A stretch of DNA of 64,000 bases, taken from contig JASHPF010000151.1 in NCBI GenBank assembly GCA_030038295.1, positions 1-64,000 on the forward strand, in the 5' to 3' direction. The DNA is from Streptosporangiaceae bacterium. GTDB lineage: Bacteria > Actinomycetota > Actinomycetes > Streptosporangiales > Streptosporangiaceae. Below the pieces are notes generated by a model. It saw nothing but the letters and a program-made list of their open reading frames with translations. It ran no database searches and was not told the DNA's origin. Shown here in pieces: positions 37,534 through 44,808 of the stretch. Positions within the stretch are counted from its first letter, which is position 1. Every line of letters starts with the position of its first letter. The translations under genes and the position numbers were made by a program.

Positions 37534-39039
37534 GTGGACCACACGACGATAGATCCGGAGTTCACCGCCTATCCGCTGCGACAGCTCGCCGACGCGGCGC
37601 TGCAGCGGGCCGCCCAGCTCGGCGCCGAGCACGCGGACTTCCGCGCCGAGCGGATCAGGGGCCAGCAGATCGGCCTGTCCGACGGCAACCTGGAGACCCA
37701 GTTCGATAGCGACGACCTCGGCCTCGCCGTGCGCGTCGTGGTGGACGGGACCTGGGGATTCGCGGCGGTGGGCGACCTGACGCCGGAGGCCGCCGCCCGC
37801 GCCGCCGCCGACGCCATCGACGTCGCGAAGGTCGCGGCCGCCATCGCCGCCGAGCGGATCGAACTCGCCGACGAGCCGGCCCACGGCGAGGTGACCTGGC
37901 TGTCGGCCTACGAGGTCGACCCGTTCGACGTCGGCGTGGCGGACAAGATCGCGCTGCTGGGCGGGTGGAGCCGCGAGCTGCTCGCCGCCGAAGGCGTGGA
38001 CCACGTCGACGCGTCGCTGTACCAGGTGAAGGAGTGCAAGTTCTACACCGACGGCGCGACCACGGCGCTGCAGCAGCGAGTCCGGGTGCACCCGTCGGTG
38101 ACCGCCGTCGCGGTGGGCGCAGACGGGCGGTTCGAGACCATGCGCACGCTCGCGCCCCCGGCCGGGCGGGGGTATGAGTACCTGACCGGCACCGGCTGGG
38201 ACTTTCCGGCCGAGCTGGCGGAGATCCCGTCGCTGCTGGCAGAGAAGATGGCGGCGCCGTCGGTCCAGGCCGGCCGGTACGACCTGGTGATCGACCCGTC
38301 GAACCTGTTCCTGACCATCCACGAGTCGATCGGGCACGCGACCGAGCTGGACCGGGCGCTCGGCTACGAGGCCGCCTACGCCGGCACCTCGTTCGCGACC
38401 TTCGACAAGCTGGGCACCCTGCCGTACGGCTCGCCGATCATGCACGTCACCGGGGACCGCACCGCCGAGCACGGCCTCGCCACCATCGGCTACGACGACG
38501 AGGGCGTCGTCGCGCAGTCCTGGGACCTCATCGCTGGCGGCGTGCTCACCGGCTACCAGCTCGACCGCAGGATGGCCCGGCTCAAGAGCCTGGGCAGGTC
38601 CAACGGCTGCTCGTTCGCTGACTCCTTCAGTCACATGCCCATCCAGCGGATGGCCAACGTCTCGCTGCAGCCGGCCACGGGTGGTCCGTCGACCGCGCAG
38701 CTGATCGCGTCGGTCACCGACGGGATCTACATCGTCGGCGACAAGAGCTGGTCGATCGACATGCAGCGGTACAACTTCCAGTTCACCGGCCAGCGGTTCT
38801 ACCGGATCAGGAACGGGCAGCTGGCCGGCCAGCTGCGGGACGTGGCGTACCAGGCGACGACCACCGACTTCTGGAACGCGATGGAGGCCGTCGGCGGGCC
38901 GCAGACCTACGTTCTCGGCGGGGCGTTCAACTGCGGCAAAGGGCAGCCAGGGCAGGTGGCGCCGGTGAGCCACGGCTGCCCGTCGGTGCTGATGCGCGGG
39001 ATCAGGATTCTCAACACGGTCGAGGAGGCGGGCACGTGA
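37534..39039 (+). CDS. tldD: TldD metalloprotease
   Basis: HESIGHATELDRALGYEAAYAGTSF (HExxxH); overlaps tldE by 4 nt. Confidence 0.95.
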   Translation: MDHTTIDPEFTAYPLRQLADAALQRAAQLGAEHADFRAERIRGQQIGLSDGNLETQFDSDDLGLAVRVVVDGTWGFAAVGDLTPEAAARAAADAIDVAKVAAAIAAERIELADEPAHGEVTWLSAYEVDPFDVGVADKIALLGGWSRELLAAEGVDHVDASLYQVKECKFYTDGATTALQQRVRVHPSVTAVAVGADGRFETMRTLAPPAGRGYEYLTGTGWDFPAELAEIPSLLAEKMAAPSVQAGRYDLVIDPSNLFLTIHESIGHATELDRALGYEAAYAGTSFATFDKLGTLPYGSPIMHVTGDRTAEHGLATIGYDDEGVVAQSWDLIAGGVLTGYQLDRRMARLKSLGRSNGCSFADSFSHMPIQRMANVSLQPATGGPSTAQLIASVTDGIYIVGDKSWSIDMQRYNFQFTGQRFYRIRNGQLAGQLRDVAYQATTTDFWNAMEAVGGPQTYVLGGAFNCGKGQPGQVAPVSHGCPSVLMRGIRILNTVEEAGT

Positions 39040-40451
39040 GCGGCGAGGTCCAGTCGGTACCGTCCCCCCAGGAGGCGGTCGAGCGCGCGCTGGCCGCCGC
39101 CAAGTGCGACGACTGCATCGTCATCGCGGACGAGGGCTCCTCGGCCAACCTGCGCTGGGCGGGTAACTCGCTGACCACCAACGGCGTGTCCAGGGCCCGG
39201 CAGCTGACCGTCGTGGCGATCAGCCGCAGCGGCGACCAGGCGCGGGTGGGGGTCGTATCCCGGGCAGGCGTCCGCACCGATCAGATCGGGGACGTCGTGG
39301 CGGAGGCCGAGGCCGCAGCGGCCGAGGCCTCCCCGGCCGAGGACGCGCAGCCGCTGATCGCGCCCGCGGCCGGCCCGGCCGAGTCGGCGGGCTTCGACCT
39401 GCCGCCGACGGCGACCGAGATCAGCGTGTTCGCCGGCTTCGCCGCCGAGCTCGGTGCTGCGCTCGGCACGGCCGCGAGCGCCGGCCGCAAGCTCTACGGT
39501 TTCGCCGAACACCAGCTGACCTCGACCTACCTGGGCACCTCGGCCGGACTCCGGCTGCGGCACGACCAGCCGACCGGGCGGCTCGAGCTCAACGCCAAGT
39601 CCGCCGATCTGACCCGGTCAGCGTGGGCGGGGGCCGGCACGCGGGACTTCACCGACGTGGACGTCACCACCCTCGAGGCCGACCTCGCGCAGCGGCTCGA
39701 CTGGGCCGCCAGGTCGGTCGAGCTGCCCGCGGGCCGGTACGAGACGCTGCTGCCGCCCACCGCGGTCGCGGACCTGCTGATCTACCTGTACTGGTCGGCC
39801 GGCGCCAAGGATGCCCTCGACGGCCGGACGGTGTTCAGCAAGCCAGGCGGCGGCACCAGGATCGGCGAGGAGCTGGCCAGCCTGCCGCTGTCGCTGCACA
39901 GCGACCCGGCCGAGCCGGGCCTGCAGTGCGCGCCGTTCGTCATCGCGCACGCCTCCTCGAGGGAGTCCTCCGTCTTCGACAACGGCCTGCGGACGGGTCG
40001 AACGGACTGGATCGCGACGGGAAGGCTCGGCGCCCTCACCCAGACCAGGCACACCGCCCGGCTTTCCGGCCAGCCGGTGACCCCGGCGATCGACAACCTC
40101 GTCCTCACCGCGCCCGGCGCCACCGGCTCGGTCGCGGACCTGGTCAGCCGGACCAAATCGGGGCTGCTGCTGACGTGCCTGTGGTACATCCGCGAGGTCG
40201 ACCCGCAGACGCTCCTGCTCACGGGCCTGACCAGGGACGGCGTGTACCTGGTCGAGAACGGCGAGGTGACCGGCGCGGTCAACAACTTCCGGTTCAACGA
40301 GAGCCCGGTCGGGATGCTGAGCCGGATCACCGAGGTCGGCGCCACCGTGCCCACGCTGCCGCGAGAGTGGAGCGACTACTTCACCAGGGCCGCCATGCCG
40401 GCGGTCCGGGTCGAGGGATTCAACATGTCGTCGGTGAGCCAGGCCAGCTAG
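39036..40451 (+). CDS. tldE: TldE/PmbA-family protein
   Basis: TldE-like fold sequence, GLLLTCLWYIREVDPQTLLLTGLTRDGVYLVENGEVTGAVNNFRFNESP. Confidence 0.94.
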   Translation: MSGEVQSVPSPQEAVERALAAAKCDDCIVIADEGSSANLRWAGNSLTTNGVSRARQLTVVAISRSGDQARVGVVSRAGVRTDQIGDVVAEAEAAAAEASPAEDAQPLIAPAAGPAESAGFDLPPTATEISVFAGFAAELGAALGTAASAGRKLYGFAEHQLTSTYLGTSAGLRLRHDQPTGRLELNAKSADLTRSAWAGAGTRDFTDVDVTTLEADLAQRLDWAARSVELPAGRYETLLPPTAVADLLIYLYWSAGAKDALDGRTVFSKPGGGTRIGEELASLPLSLHSDPAEPGLQCAPFVIAHASSRESSVFDNGLRTGRTDWIATGRLGALTQTRHTARLSGQPVTPAIDNLVLTAPGATGSVADLVSRTKSGLLLTCLWYIREVDPQTLLLTGLTRDGVYLVENGEVTGAVNNFRFNESPVGMLSRITEVGATVPTLPREWSDYFTRAAMPAVRVEGFNMSSVSQAS

Positions 40452-40488
40452 CCCGATCGGCGACCCGGTAGCCTGCCTGCCTGCCCGT

Positions 40489-40538
40489 CATGGGAGCGGG
40501 ATCGCACTGGCTATAGGCAGTGCAATCCCGCTCCCATG
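40489..40538. terminator. Large inverted repeat, 21-bp arms with one mismatch, 8-nt loop, between convergent tldE and dodecin genes
   Basis: CATGGGAGCGGGATcGCACTG - gctatagg - CAGTGCaATCCCGCTCCCATG; no clear U-tract. Confidence 0.85.
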
Positions 40539-40577
40539 CACCGCCGCCAGGGCAGAGAGCGTCCGCGGGCCCTCGGG

Positions 40578-40790
40578 TCACGGATCTTCGAGCCGGAACC
40601 CGATCTTCAGGTCGACCTGGAAGTGGGCTACCTCGCCGTCGACGATCTGCCCGCGGACCTGAGTGACCTCGAACCAGTCGAGGTGCCGGAGCGTCTGAGC
40701 GGCCCGCCGTAGCGCGCCGCGGATCGCGGTCTCGATGCTGTCCGGTGAGGTTCCGACGATCTCGGTGACCCGGTATGTCCGATCAGTCAT
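40578..40790 (-). CDS. Dodecin family protein
   Basis: MTDRTYRVTEIVGTSPDSIETAIRGALRRAAQTLRHLDWFEVTQVRGQIVDGEVAHFQVDLKIGFRLE. Confidence 0.93.
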   Translation of the reverse strand: MTDRTYRVTEIVGTSPDSIETAIRGALRRAAQTLRHLDWFEVTQVRGQIVDGEVAHFQVDLKIGFRLEDP

Positions 40791-40899
40791 AGGTTTCCTC
40801 CGCGCGAGTGCCAGCGCCGTCACGCCTTCAGCATGCCGGATCGGCTCCGCCGCAGCCGCGCCGTCCCAGCGCTAGCGGCGGGCAGGTGAGCGGCATAAC

Positions 40900-41250
40900 G
40901 TGGATGGTGTGAAGACGGCTCCGCGCAATCGCGATGAAGCCCACCTGGTGACTGAGGCCAGGCCGGGCTTGTCCGCGGACATCCGCTACCGGGAGCGCCG
41001 CTATCTGATCATGATGGGCATCCGGACGGTGTGCTTCGCGGCCGCGATCCTCATGTTCGTCAACCACCTCGGCTGGCTGACCGCGATCCCTGCGGTCGGC
41101 GCGCTGGTGATCCCGTACTTCGCGGTGGTGTTCGCCAACGGCGGCCGAGAGCCCACGGCGAACCGGACATTCCGCCAGTACGAGCCGAACTCCCCGGCTA
41201 TCTATCGCCCGCCTACCAGGCCGGGCAGCCCGCCGTCGCCCGACAAGTAG
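40900..41250 (+). CDS. DUF3099-like membrane protein
   Basis: RYRERRYLIMMGIRTVCFAAAILMF, two TM helices. GTG 40909 is a better-positioned leaderless start. Confidence 0.82.
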   Translation: MDGVKTAPRNRDEAHLVTEARPGLSADIRYRERRYLIMMGIRTVCFAAAILMFVNHLGWLTAIPAVGALVIPYFAVVFANGGREPTANRTFRQYEPNSPAIYRPPTRPGSPPSPDK

Positions 41251-41348
41251 CCGATCTGCCCAGACGCCAGGACTAGCCGCCCATCGCGGCTTGATTACCG
41301 CGTAATCCTGTCTTGATGCACTAGGGGGACGTTCGGTGTAACATGCAT

Positions 41349-41466
41349 ACCGGTGCTCTGGTCCCCCGCCGGAGCATCAACTGCCGGCGTTCCGGGCCCC
41401 CGTCGGAGCGCCGATGATTGCGACGCCGGGTGGTTTGCCCCCGTAGCCACCCGGCGTCGCTTTATG
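41349..41466 (+). ncRNA. Putative 6C-like small RNA with three C-rich-loop hairpins; the last is terminator-like
   Basis: H1 TGCTCTGG-tcccccg-CCGGAGCA (41354-41376), H2 CGGCGTTCCG-ggcccccgt-CGGAGCGCCG (41385-41413), H3 GCGACGCCGGGTGG-tttgcccccgtag-CCACCCGGCGTCGC (41420-41460) then TTTATG. Possible promoter TTGATG-N18-TGTAAC at 41313-41342. Confidence 0.6.
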
Positions 41467-41710
41467 CTCGGGGGCTTCGCCCCCTCGCCGTCGGCTCGCA
41501 GTGCTTGCCCCGGGGGACACCCCCCGGAACCCCCCACCACGTCGCTTTATGCTCGGGGCTTCGCCCCCTCGCCGTCGGCTCGCAGTGCTTGCCCCGGGGG
41601 GACACCCCCCGGAACCCCCCACCACGCCGCTTTATGCTCGGGGGCTTCGCCCCCTCGCCGGCGGCTCGCAGTGCTTGCCCCGGGGGGACACCCCCCGGAA
41701 CCCCCCACCA
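41456..41710. repeat. Three tandem copies of an ~85-bp GC-rich, hairpin-rich repeat
   Basis: Copies start at 41456, 41541 and 41626 with core (g)tcgctttatgctcggggcttcgccccctcgcc[g]tcggctcgcagtgcttgccccggggggacaccccccggaaccccccaccac. Confidence 0.97.
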
Positions 41711-41939: not shown

Positions 41940-42860
41940 TTACTCGGTCTTCGCGAACTCCGCGATCGCGATCGACATCATCCCGAGCCCCATGATCCCG
42001 ACGATCCCGAGCGACAGCCACAGCGGCACCGGCCAGCCGACCCAGGTGATGGCCGGCGCGAGGTGCGCGTTGATCGCCGCGGCGACGGGCGCCGGCACGC
42101 TGAGGTGGCTGAAGACCAGGTGCCGCATCGGGCCGACCACGTAGGTCAGCGGGTCGAGCCGGGTGAGGACGGTCAGCCAGGCGGGCAGGCCGTTCAGCGG
42201 GTACAGGGCGCCGGACAGGAAGAACAGCGGCATCACGAGCATCTGCGTCAGCGCCATGAAGGCCTGGAACTGCCTGATCCTCGCCGCCATCATGACGCCA
42301 AACGCGGTCAGCGTGAACGAGAGCAGCAGCAGCATCCCGATCAGGCCGAGGATCAGCAGCGGGTCGTAGGGCACGTGCGCGAACCAGGCCAGGCACAGGA
42401 AGATCACTCCCTGGAAGGTGGCGATAGTCGCGCCGCCGAGGCACTTGCCGATCACGATCGCGCCGCGGCTGACGGGCGCGACCAGGATCTCCCGCAGGAA
42501 GCCGAATTCCCGGTCCCACACGATCGAGGCCGCCGAGAAGATGGCGGTAAACAGCACCGACATGGCCAGGACGCCGGGGAAGATGAACGTCTTGAAGTCG
42601 AAGTTGGCCGCGTGCGGCAGGTTGCTCCCGGCCAGCCTGGACAGCCCGGTGCCGAGGATGAACAGGAACAGGAACGGCTGCACCAGCGAGGTGATGGCGC
42701 GCAGCCGGTCGGTACGGAACCTGATGAGCTCGCGCCGCCAGACGATGCTGATCGCGCGGAAGTCGTGCTTCAGCCCGCGGTCGGGCACCGACACCCGGAT
42801 CCGTTCGACGACGGCGCCGGCGCCGGCGGCCGTCGTGGGCTCGGTTGTCTGCGTCGCCAT
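41940..42860 (-). CDS. ABC-2 type transporter permease (DrrB-like)
   Basis: Six-TM ABC-2 permease with IVWDREFGFLREILVAPVSRGAIVIGKCLGG motif. Confidence 0.93.
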   Translation of the reverse strand: MATQTTEPTTAAGAGAVVERIRVSVPDRGLKHDFRAISIVWRRELIRFRTDRLRAITSLVQPFLFLFILGTGLSRLAGSNLPHAANFDFKTFIFPGVLAMSVLFTAIFSAASIVWDREFGFLREILVAPVSRGAIVIGKCLGGATIATFQGVIFLCLAWFAHVPYDPLLILGLIGMLLLLSFTLTAFGVMMAARIRQFQAFMALTQMLVMPLFFLSGALYPLNGLPAWLTVLTRLDPLTYVVGPMRHLVFSHLSVPAPVAAAINAHLAPAITWVGWPVPLWLSLGIVGIMGLGMMSIAIAEFAKTE

Positions 42861-42862
42861 GG

Positions 42863-43918
42863 CTACCGCCTCCCGCCGGTTCGCATCCGGTGCATGTTGC
42901 GCATGAACTCGTTCCCGGCGCCGCCCTCGGCATCCCTGATCGTCGTGCCGGTGTAGGACATGAACACGTCGTCGAGCGAAGGCCGGGACACGCTGACCGA
43001 CCGGATGGGGACGCTGAGCTCGGCGAACAGCCGGGGCACGAACTGCTCGCCCGAGGTCACCGCGAACGTCACAGCGCCCTCGTGCATGGCCGCCTCGAGG
43101 CCGAAGACCGACTTGAGCTCGGCGATCGCGCCGCGGTCGTCGGCCGTCTGGATCTGCACCCGGTCCTTGCCCACGCTGGCCTTCAGCGCCTCAGGCGTGT
43201 CGATCGCCACGATCTTGCCGTGGTCGATGATCGCGATCCGGTCGCAGTGCTCCGCCTCGTCCATGTAGTGCGTGGTGAGAAAGATGGTGATGTCCTCGCG
43301 CCGCTTCAGGTCGTTGATGTAGGCCCAGATCGATGACCGGGTCTGCGGGTCGAGCCCTACCGTCGGCTCGTCCAGGAACAGCACGTGCGGCGCGTGCAGC
43401 AGGCCCCTGGCGATCTCCAGTCGCCGCTGCATGCCGCCCGAGTACGTGCTGACCAGGCTGTCCTTGCGGTCCCAGAGGCCCACCATCTCCATGACCTGGC
43501 GCATCCGCGGCGCCACCGCGGCCCTCGGCACGCCGTACATCTCGGCGTGGAAACGCAGGTTCTGCTCGGCGGTGAGGTAGGTGTCGAGCGTCGTGTCCTG
43601 GAACACCAGGCCGATTTGCCGCCGCACCGCGTCTCGTTCGGTCGTCGCGTCGAGCCCGTTGACCAGCGCCGTCCCGGCAGTGGCGGTCGCCAGCGTGCAG
43701 AGGATCTTGATAGTCGTGGACTTGCCGGCGCCGTTCGGCCCGAGGAACCCGAAGGTCTCGCCCCTGGCGACGGTGAAGTTGATGCCGCGCACCGCCTCCA
43801 CGTCGCCGTATCTCTTGACCAGGCCGGAAACCGCGATCACGGTCTCCGGCCCGCTGCCGTCAAGCAGCGCCGCCGACGCTCGCGGCCCGGCCTGCGCTGC
43901 CGTTCCCGATGGTGTCAC
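42863..43918 (-). CDS. Daunorubicin-resistance-type ABC transporter ATP-binding protein (DrrA-like)
   Basis: GPNGAGKSTTIKILCTLATATAG, YSGGMQRRLEIARGLLHAPHVLFLDEPTVGLDPQTR. Confidence 0.94.
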   Translation of the reverse strand: MTPSGTAAQAGPRASAALLDGSGPETVIAVSGLVKRYGDVEAVRGINFTVARGETFGFLGPNGAGKSTTIKILCTLATATAGTALVNGLDATTERDAVRRQIGLVFQDTTLDTYLTAEQNLRFHAEMYGVPRAAVAPRMRQVMEMVGLWDRKDSLVSTYSGGMQRRLEIARGLLHAPHVLFLDEPTVGLDPQTRSSIWAYINDLKRREDITIFLTTHYMDEAEHCDRIAIIDHGKIVAIDTPEALKASVGKDRVQIQTADDRGAIAELKSVFGLEAAMHEGAVTFAVTSGEQFVPRLFAELSVPIRSVSVSRPSLDDVFMSYTGTTIRDAEGGAGNEFMRNMHRMRTGGRR

Positions 43919-43994
43919 TCCGGATCGAGCCTCCCTGGATCAGCTATCGACGAGCCTAATCGCGGCCGGCGAGCCGTGCTCGTCGGCGCCCGCC

Positions 43995-44038
43995 GTCAAG
44001 TTAAGTTGACGAAGGCGCATGTGTCAACAATAGTTGAC
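43995..44038. promoter_or_regulatory. Pair of operator-like inverted repeats upstream of drrAB: GTCAA-gttaag-TTGAC and GTCAAC-aata-GTTGAC
   Basis: Direct reading in the 170-bp gap between the padR stop and the ATPase start. Confidence 0.6.
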
Positions 44039-44088
44039 GATGATCGGCGAGCCGGCCGCGCGACCTCGCGTCGCGGGCCGGCTCGGCG

Positions 44089-44808
44089 TCACTCGCCGTC
44101 GCCGGCGCTCTCCTCGTCTGAGGCGAGAATCCGGTACAGCGCCTTCCTGGTGTCGGTCAGCAGCTGCCGCGCCTCCGCGGCCTGGGCGTCCGTGCCCGCG
44201 CTGACCACCTGCACCGCGGCCATGGCCACCTGGCCGACCAGCCGGCGCATCTCTAGCGCGGCACCGCCGGCCCCGCCGGCCACCACGTCCCACGGAGCGC
44301 GCAGCTCGGACTGGTGCGTCTCCGCGTACTGCCGGCCCTCATCGGTCAGCTGGTACGCGCGGCGCCCGCCGTCGCCCGCCTCGGCCCTGATCAGGCCCTC
44401 GTCCTCGAGCTGCTGCAGGGCCGGGTAGACCGAGCCGGGGCTCGGCCGCCAGACGCCGCCGCTACGCTCGGCGATCTCCTGGATGATCTGGTAGCCGTTC
44501 AACGGCTGCTCAGCCAGCAGCGCAAGCGCCGCCGCCCGCACGTCACCTCGCCGGGCACGCGGCCCGCGCATCCGGTGCGCCTCCTTCAGCCAGGGGCCTC
44601 CGCGCAGCTCAGGGCCGGGAAACCCTGGCCCTGGCGGGAATCCCGGACCGCCAAGCGGGCCGCCGAAGTGCGGCCGCGACCGGAACCGGCCACGTCCGCC
44701 GCCCCGCCGCTCGCCGTCGTCACCGTGCCAGCGACGGTGCTCGCCATCGTCGGCGGGCTCCCACCGGCCCGGTCCGCGACGCCAGTCGCGTTCGTTGTCG
44801 TCACGCAT
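44089..44808 (-). CDS. PadR family transcriptional regulator
   Basis: RRGDVRAAALALLAEQPLNGYQIIQEIAERSGGVWRPSPGSVYPALQQLEDEGLIRAE. Confidence 0.94.
   Translation of the reverse strand: MRDDNERDWRRGPGRWEPADDGEHRRWHGDDGERRGGGRGRFRSRPHFGGPLGGPGFPPGPGFPGPELRGGPWLKEAHRMRGPRARRGDVRAAALALLAEQPLNGYQIIQEIAERSGGVWRPSPGSVYPALQQLEDEGLIRAEAGDGGRRAYQLTDEGRQYAETHQSELRAPWDVVAGGAGGAALEMRRLVGQVAMAAVQVVSAGTDAQAAEARQLLTDTRKALYRILASDEESAGDGE

Follow-up and report, generated by a model that had tools for sequence, protein, structure and literature searches.

A structured RNA with three C-loop hairpins

The window, by which we mean the whole 64,000-nucleotide stretch of DNA that was analysed, contains three consecutive hairpins that expose the same CCCCCG string, and the base-pair substitutions seen among relatives indicate that this interval is a genuine structured RNA. 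By its match to a model of the two-hairpin core, the CCCCCGT loop of its terminator hairpin and the adjoining DUF3099, dodecin and tldE genes, it is a member of a class-wide actinobacterial family, for which we use the name DUF3099-linked C-loop RNA and of which the two-hairpin form is the commoner. A sequence-only reading of this DNA had proposed an unannotated small RNA that carries three C-loops, one of them on a terminator hairpin, and that proposal is supported by the analysis below. The features of the RNA and of the region just before it are as follows.

41311-41317, plus strand: -35-like block TCTTGAT/TCTTGAC, conserved in the alignment of relatives
41335-41344, plus strand: -10-like block GGTGTAnnnT (TANNNT at 41339-41344), conserved in relatives
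41347-41466, plus strand: whole RNA as modelled with all three hairpins (model R1; cmsearch, 132.3 bits)
41352-41378, plus strand: hairpin 1, loop CCCCCG at 41363-41368 (fold; double changes at 4 of 10 pairs)
41385-41413, plus strand: hairpin 2, loop CCCCCG at 41397-41402 (fold, covariation and likeness to hairpin 1)
41420-41460, plus strand: hairpin 3, terminator-like, loop UUGCCCCCGUA with CCCCCG at 41438-41443 (fold; double changes at 6 of 16 pairs)

Folding bears out the three hairpins that had been described from the letters, at coordinates that agree with the earlier ones to within two bases. The stem of hairpin 1 pairs 41352-41362 with 41368-41378 (10-11 bp) and that of hairpin 2 pairs 41385-41395 with 41403-41413 (11 bp), while hairpin 3 has the perfect 14-bp stem claimed for it, 14 uninterrupted pairs in the fold, or 16 if two weaker loop-closing pairs are counted. 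The predicted folding energy of 41350-41466 is -75.2 kcal/mol, compared with -48.1 +/- 3.4 kcal/mol for dinucleotide shuffles (z = -8). CCCCCG occurs 48 times on the two strands of the window, and the only occurrences inside a stem of at least 7 bp are the three loops of the RNA; three stem-borne CCCCCG strings within 100 nt did not arise in any of 200 first-order Markov sequences. Because hairpins 1 and 2 are identical at 19 of 24 bases, the third loop would have arisen most simply by duplication of the first hairpin, and the extra hairpin of the window's version is probably such a duplicate.

Nearly every family-mate examined gave a clear BLASTN match to a 141-base query. In 28 distinct relatives, 99.9% of the cells in the 37 pairs are kept as standard pairs and double changes are seen at 12 of those pairs (40 cells); the stems thus covary, a point that the sequence-only reading had put up for checking. 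The observed covariation was equalled by none of 500 shuffles, and the signal was destroyed when the partner was slid by one base. Since all 23 loop columns are invariant in the 28 relatives and the stems are less so (39 of 74 columns, with 4 of 21 in linkers and ends), selection appears to act on the loops and not on shape alone. Across families, the terminator loop CCCCCGT is retained in all 33 orthologues while the stems are rewritten, and CCCCCG is present in the first hairpin region in 26 of the 33. Double changes at this distance affect 18 of 21 pairs (74 cells), in an alignment that was fitted to the model and is therefore biased towards it.

Transcript boundaries and flanking repeats

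A promoter, TTGATG-N18-TGTAAC, had been read just upstream of the hairpins. Both words are present and their TTGAC and TGTA columns are conserved, but the element is weaker than was claimed, a sigma-70 consensus scan having given no consensus match. In many other families a TGNNATACT-like -10 element stands immediately before the first hairpin, from which we infer that transcription starts at the foot of hairpin 1; the 5' end in the window likely falls at about 41350-41352. The terminator-like hairpin is strong; the TTTATG that follows it is not a strong U-tract, although CUUUU-like tails are found in many relatives. The predicted transcript is a free-standing sRNA of about 110-115 nt, running from about 41350 to 41463. 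A pairing of loop 1 with an upstream AGGGGGA, seen in a 154-nt fold, was dropped from consideration; this AGGGGGA lies in the stretch between the promoter-like blocks and is unconserved in relatives.

A direct repeat, AAGCTCAnGAAAAGCTCAGATCAAT, situated about 60 nt ahead of where the RNA begins, is conserved in Streptomyces-type orthologues (L078, L079, L080, L083 and L089-L091) and is possibly a regulator site. Window positions 41455-41710 hold three 86-bp tandem copies that are rich in GGGGG/CCCCC palindromes and occur essentially only here in the genome; because the repeat unit begins with CGTCGCTTTATGCTC, the RNA's terminator tail, the array looks like a local duplication begun inside the terminator.

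Distribution and gene neighbourhood

Searches used two models, R1 for all three hairpins and R2 for the two-hairpin core. In the class sample R1 matched 45 same-family genomes at E <= about 1e-13, with no same-family genome among those listed lacking a match, and gave weak matches elsewhere. One copy per genome was found with R2 in 135 of 396 class genomes, which include many soil actinobacteria and represent at least a dozen families, and every match in the phylum sample lay within the class; the window scores 82.1 bits with R2 and is itself among that model's own sequences. In families other than the Streptosporangiaceae-type one and a neighbouring one (G037), the RNA takes the form of one C-loop hairpin plus the terminator hairpin. 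Antisense matches at L287:2565-2643 and at window positions 41414-41489 (minus strand) come from the palindromic terminator hairpin and represent no second gene. A further R1 match, at E 0.004 (L086), was judged false: it lacks a C-loop, and its surroundings showed no syntenic neighbour.

The genes around the RNA in the window are these.

Within 37534-40823, plus strand: tldD and tldE homologues (conserved neighbourhood)
40578-40823, minus strand: dodecin gene (conserved neighbourhood)
40900-41250, plus strand: DUF3099 membrane-protein gene directly upstream of the RNA (Pfam PF11298, E 1e-24)
41940-44808, minus strand: ABC-2 permease, DrrA-like ATPase and PadR-family regulator (a typical exporter set)

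The RNA lies 100 nt past the stop codon of DUF3099 and shares its strand. All loci were found with the RNA model alone, so that neighbouring genes played no part in the search, and the same neighbours (DUF3099, dodecin, tldD/tldE) were nevertheless present at 39 of 40 inspected loci, with DUF3099 upstream in the same orientation at 34 of the 40, in other genera and families. Among the first 20 loci fetched, of which 18 belong to other families, DUF3099 stands just upstream in the same orientation at 17, and tldE or dodecin is a neighbour at another two; because neighbours are thus shared with the window at 19 of the 20, the weak R1 matches are not attributable to chance. At 20 further R2 loci DUF3099 was found 17 times, and dodecin is present at the three where it was undetected (L290-L292). 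In one large family (f20) the order is tldE, tyrosyl-tRNA synthetase, DUF3099, the RNA and a convergent moaA, and we take this family as Streptomyces-type because of that order around the RNA and because the Streptomyces sRNA Scr3202 is found in three of the four genomes tested. The moaA gene of S. coelicolor is SCO1821 (PMC4021200). Streptomyces-type orthologues consist of two hairpins whose loops are C5 and C6, CCCCCC standing in the terminator loop.

Proposed function and alternatives

We consider it probable, short of confident, that the RNA is a trans-acting, free-standing sRNA whose CCCCCGU loops pair with G-rich mRNA regions. It would be transcribed from its own promoter; rigid stems would display the CCCCCGU loops, which would pair with (A)CGGGGG, most likely within or close to ribosome-binding sites; such pairing would lower the translation or stability of several mRNAs. 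Loop-based recognition is suggested because the C-loops are invariant on freely changing stems, although the first-hairpin C-loop has been lost in a few families, which we count against this explanation. In M. abscessus, either C-loop of B11 (6C) can bring about repression by pairing with a G6 tract of the eccB4 5' UTR (PMC10470900), and in M. marinum it is the terminator C-loop of B11 that does the regulating (PMC12395582).

The earlier suggestion that mRNAs containing GGGGG or GGAGG are silenced is plausible by analogy, but target statistics gave it no support beyond controls; GGAGG is an imperfect partner of CCCCC. The statistics were computed on two family genomes (G020 and G182, 1.2 Mb of each) with gene calls of our own making, and a short loop with a small target set could escape them. 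GGGGG is over-represented ahead of starts, where it reflects the general G-rich signal, and neither CGGGGG nor ACGGGGG is enriched over permuted words at start-codon regions. Duplex energies fell within the range of permuted-loop controls, the best site, in the sepF start region, not rising above them, and conserved complementary sites in 436 orthologue pairs were too few to judge.

Rather than many G-rich mRNAs, the loops might recognise one dedicated ancient partner, either a single conserved mRNA or a C-loop-binding protein. We hold this to be unlikely, though not so unlikely as to be set aside; if true, it would mean a second, separate C-loop circuit beside 6C in the same cells.

The main rival to target pairing is a protein sponge, in which the C-loops would titrate a C-rich-binding RNA-binding protein through three identical sites, much as repeated GGA loops serve as protein-titrating sites in CsrB-type RNAs. 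Identical loops on three hairpins, together with their total invariance, fit multi-site protein binding equally well, the duplication of hairpin 1 into hairpin 2 adds binding sites, and the duplex-energy test gave no mRNA target signal. However, we know of no C-loop-binding protein of that kind in these bacteria, and we regard the sponge as a rather improbable reading. The best-studied analogue, 6C/B11, moreover acts by base pairing (PMC10470900, PMC12395582).

Somewhat less probable again is that the hairpins form a 3'-UTR or terminator element of DUF3099, concerned with transcription end or mRNA stability, or belong to an RNA released from the DUF3099 transcript, with no free-standing gene in either case. 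The short distance from the stop codon of DUF3099, the shared strand, an order kept in nearly all genomes, and the strong hairpin at the end of the RNA are what such an element would look like, but invariant loops and extra C-loop hairpins are needless for a plain terminator, promoter-like blocks stand right before hairpin 1, and the RNA persists at the three loci where DUF3099 was undetected and dodecin was kept.

The sequence-only reading had taken the RNA for a divergent member of the 6C family, which is known as B11 in mycobacteria and as scr3558 in Streptomyces coelicolor. The two share a plan, a C-loop hairpin followed by a C-loop terminator hairpin, the Streptomyces-type orthologues carry CCCCCC in the terminator loop, and common descent could be too old to show in sequence. 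We nonetheless regard this assignment as very unlikely. The Rfam 6C model, whose use had been proposed as the check, gave no match on 131 nt at a threshold as permissive as E <= 10 and none on 3 kb (gathering score 47 bits), and where 6C has two hairpins with at least six C per loop, this RNA has three hairpins with five C plus G. The genome has a separate, real 6C on another contig (G000:C397:26250-26326, L001; 55.8 bits against the cut-off of 47) with the loops CCCCCCC and CUCCCCCCC, and among 60 relatives and class-mates the 6C model found a match in 45. Reciprocally, neither R1 nor R2 matched the 6C locus of L001, and R2 gave no match at the 6C loci of L094-L097 and L099. Finally, chance, or a palindrome acting as DNA without RNA function, might be suspected from the GC-rich tandem array adjoining the RNA, but is refuted by the covariation, the loop invariance, the synteny and the Markov-sequence test.

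Significance and comparison with known C-loop RNAs

A widespread, single-copy and syntenic RNA family that is absent from Rfam 15 joins the few conserved sRNAs of Actinomycetes, and 6C is not the sole C-loop RNA in these cells, whose genomes carry two or more. Because the loop letters differ (C6 or more versus CCCCCGU), the target sets of the two RNAs are directly comparable, and the constancy of a seven-letter loop on stems that have been rewritten poses a clean question of what selects C-loop RNAs. The short Streptomyces-type orthologue between the DUF3099 gene and moaA makes the idea testable in standard laboratory strains. Judged against Rfam 15 and the open papers searched, the RNA appears to be new; literature searches by neighbour genes or S. 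coelicolor number found nothing relevant; its orthologue may sit, as a number, in the supplementary sRNA tables of Streptomyces studies.

No Rfam 15 family exceeds its cut-off at the RNA interval. The best score, 26 bits against a gathering score of 52, belongs to Scr3202 (RF02833), which also has two C-loop hairpins and of which only half the cut-off is reached here; membership was rejected on that score and because a real Scr3202 lies elsewhere in three genomes of the Streptomyces type, and R2 found no convincing match at Scr3202 loci. Streptomyces scr1434 and scr5583 are expressed, conserved sRNAs with C-rich loops (Moody et al. 2013, PMC3765725), but they are named after other flanking genes, SCO1434 and SCO5583, whereas the orthologue of the window RNA lies between DUF3099 and moaA. 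The CcsR1 and ar7-type RNAs of Proteobacteria (RF02791, RF02342) likewise have repeated hairpins with C-rich, anti-Shine-Dalgarno-like loops; their loop sequences differ, ar7 reaching 17.5 of 60 bits here and CcsR1 being unmatched at the RNA interval.

The closest comparison is with 6C (RF01066). Both RNAs are actinobacterial and short, with C-run loops on hairpins that include the terminator, and the same working principle is likely. They differ in their loops, C6 or more as against CCCCCGU, and in the number of C-loop hairpins, up to three in the window RNA; they occupy different loci, neither model matches the other, and both coexist in most genomes of the Streptosporangiaceae-type family. 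Our best guess is that the DUF3099-linked C-loop RNA works like 6C, but is not 6C.
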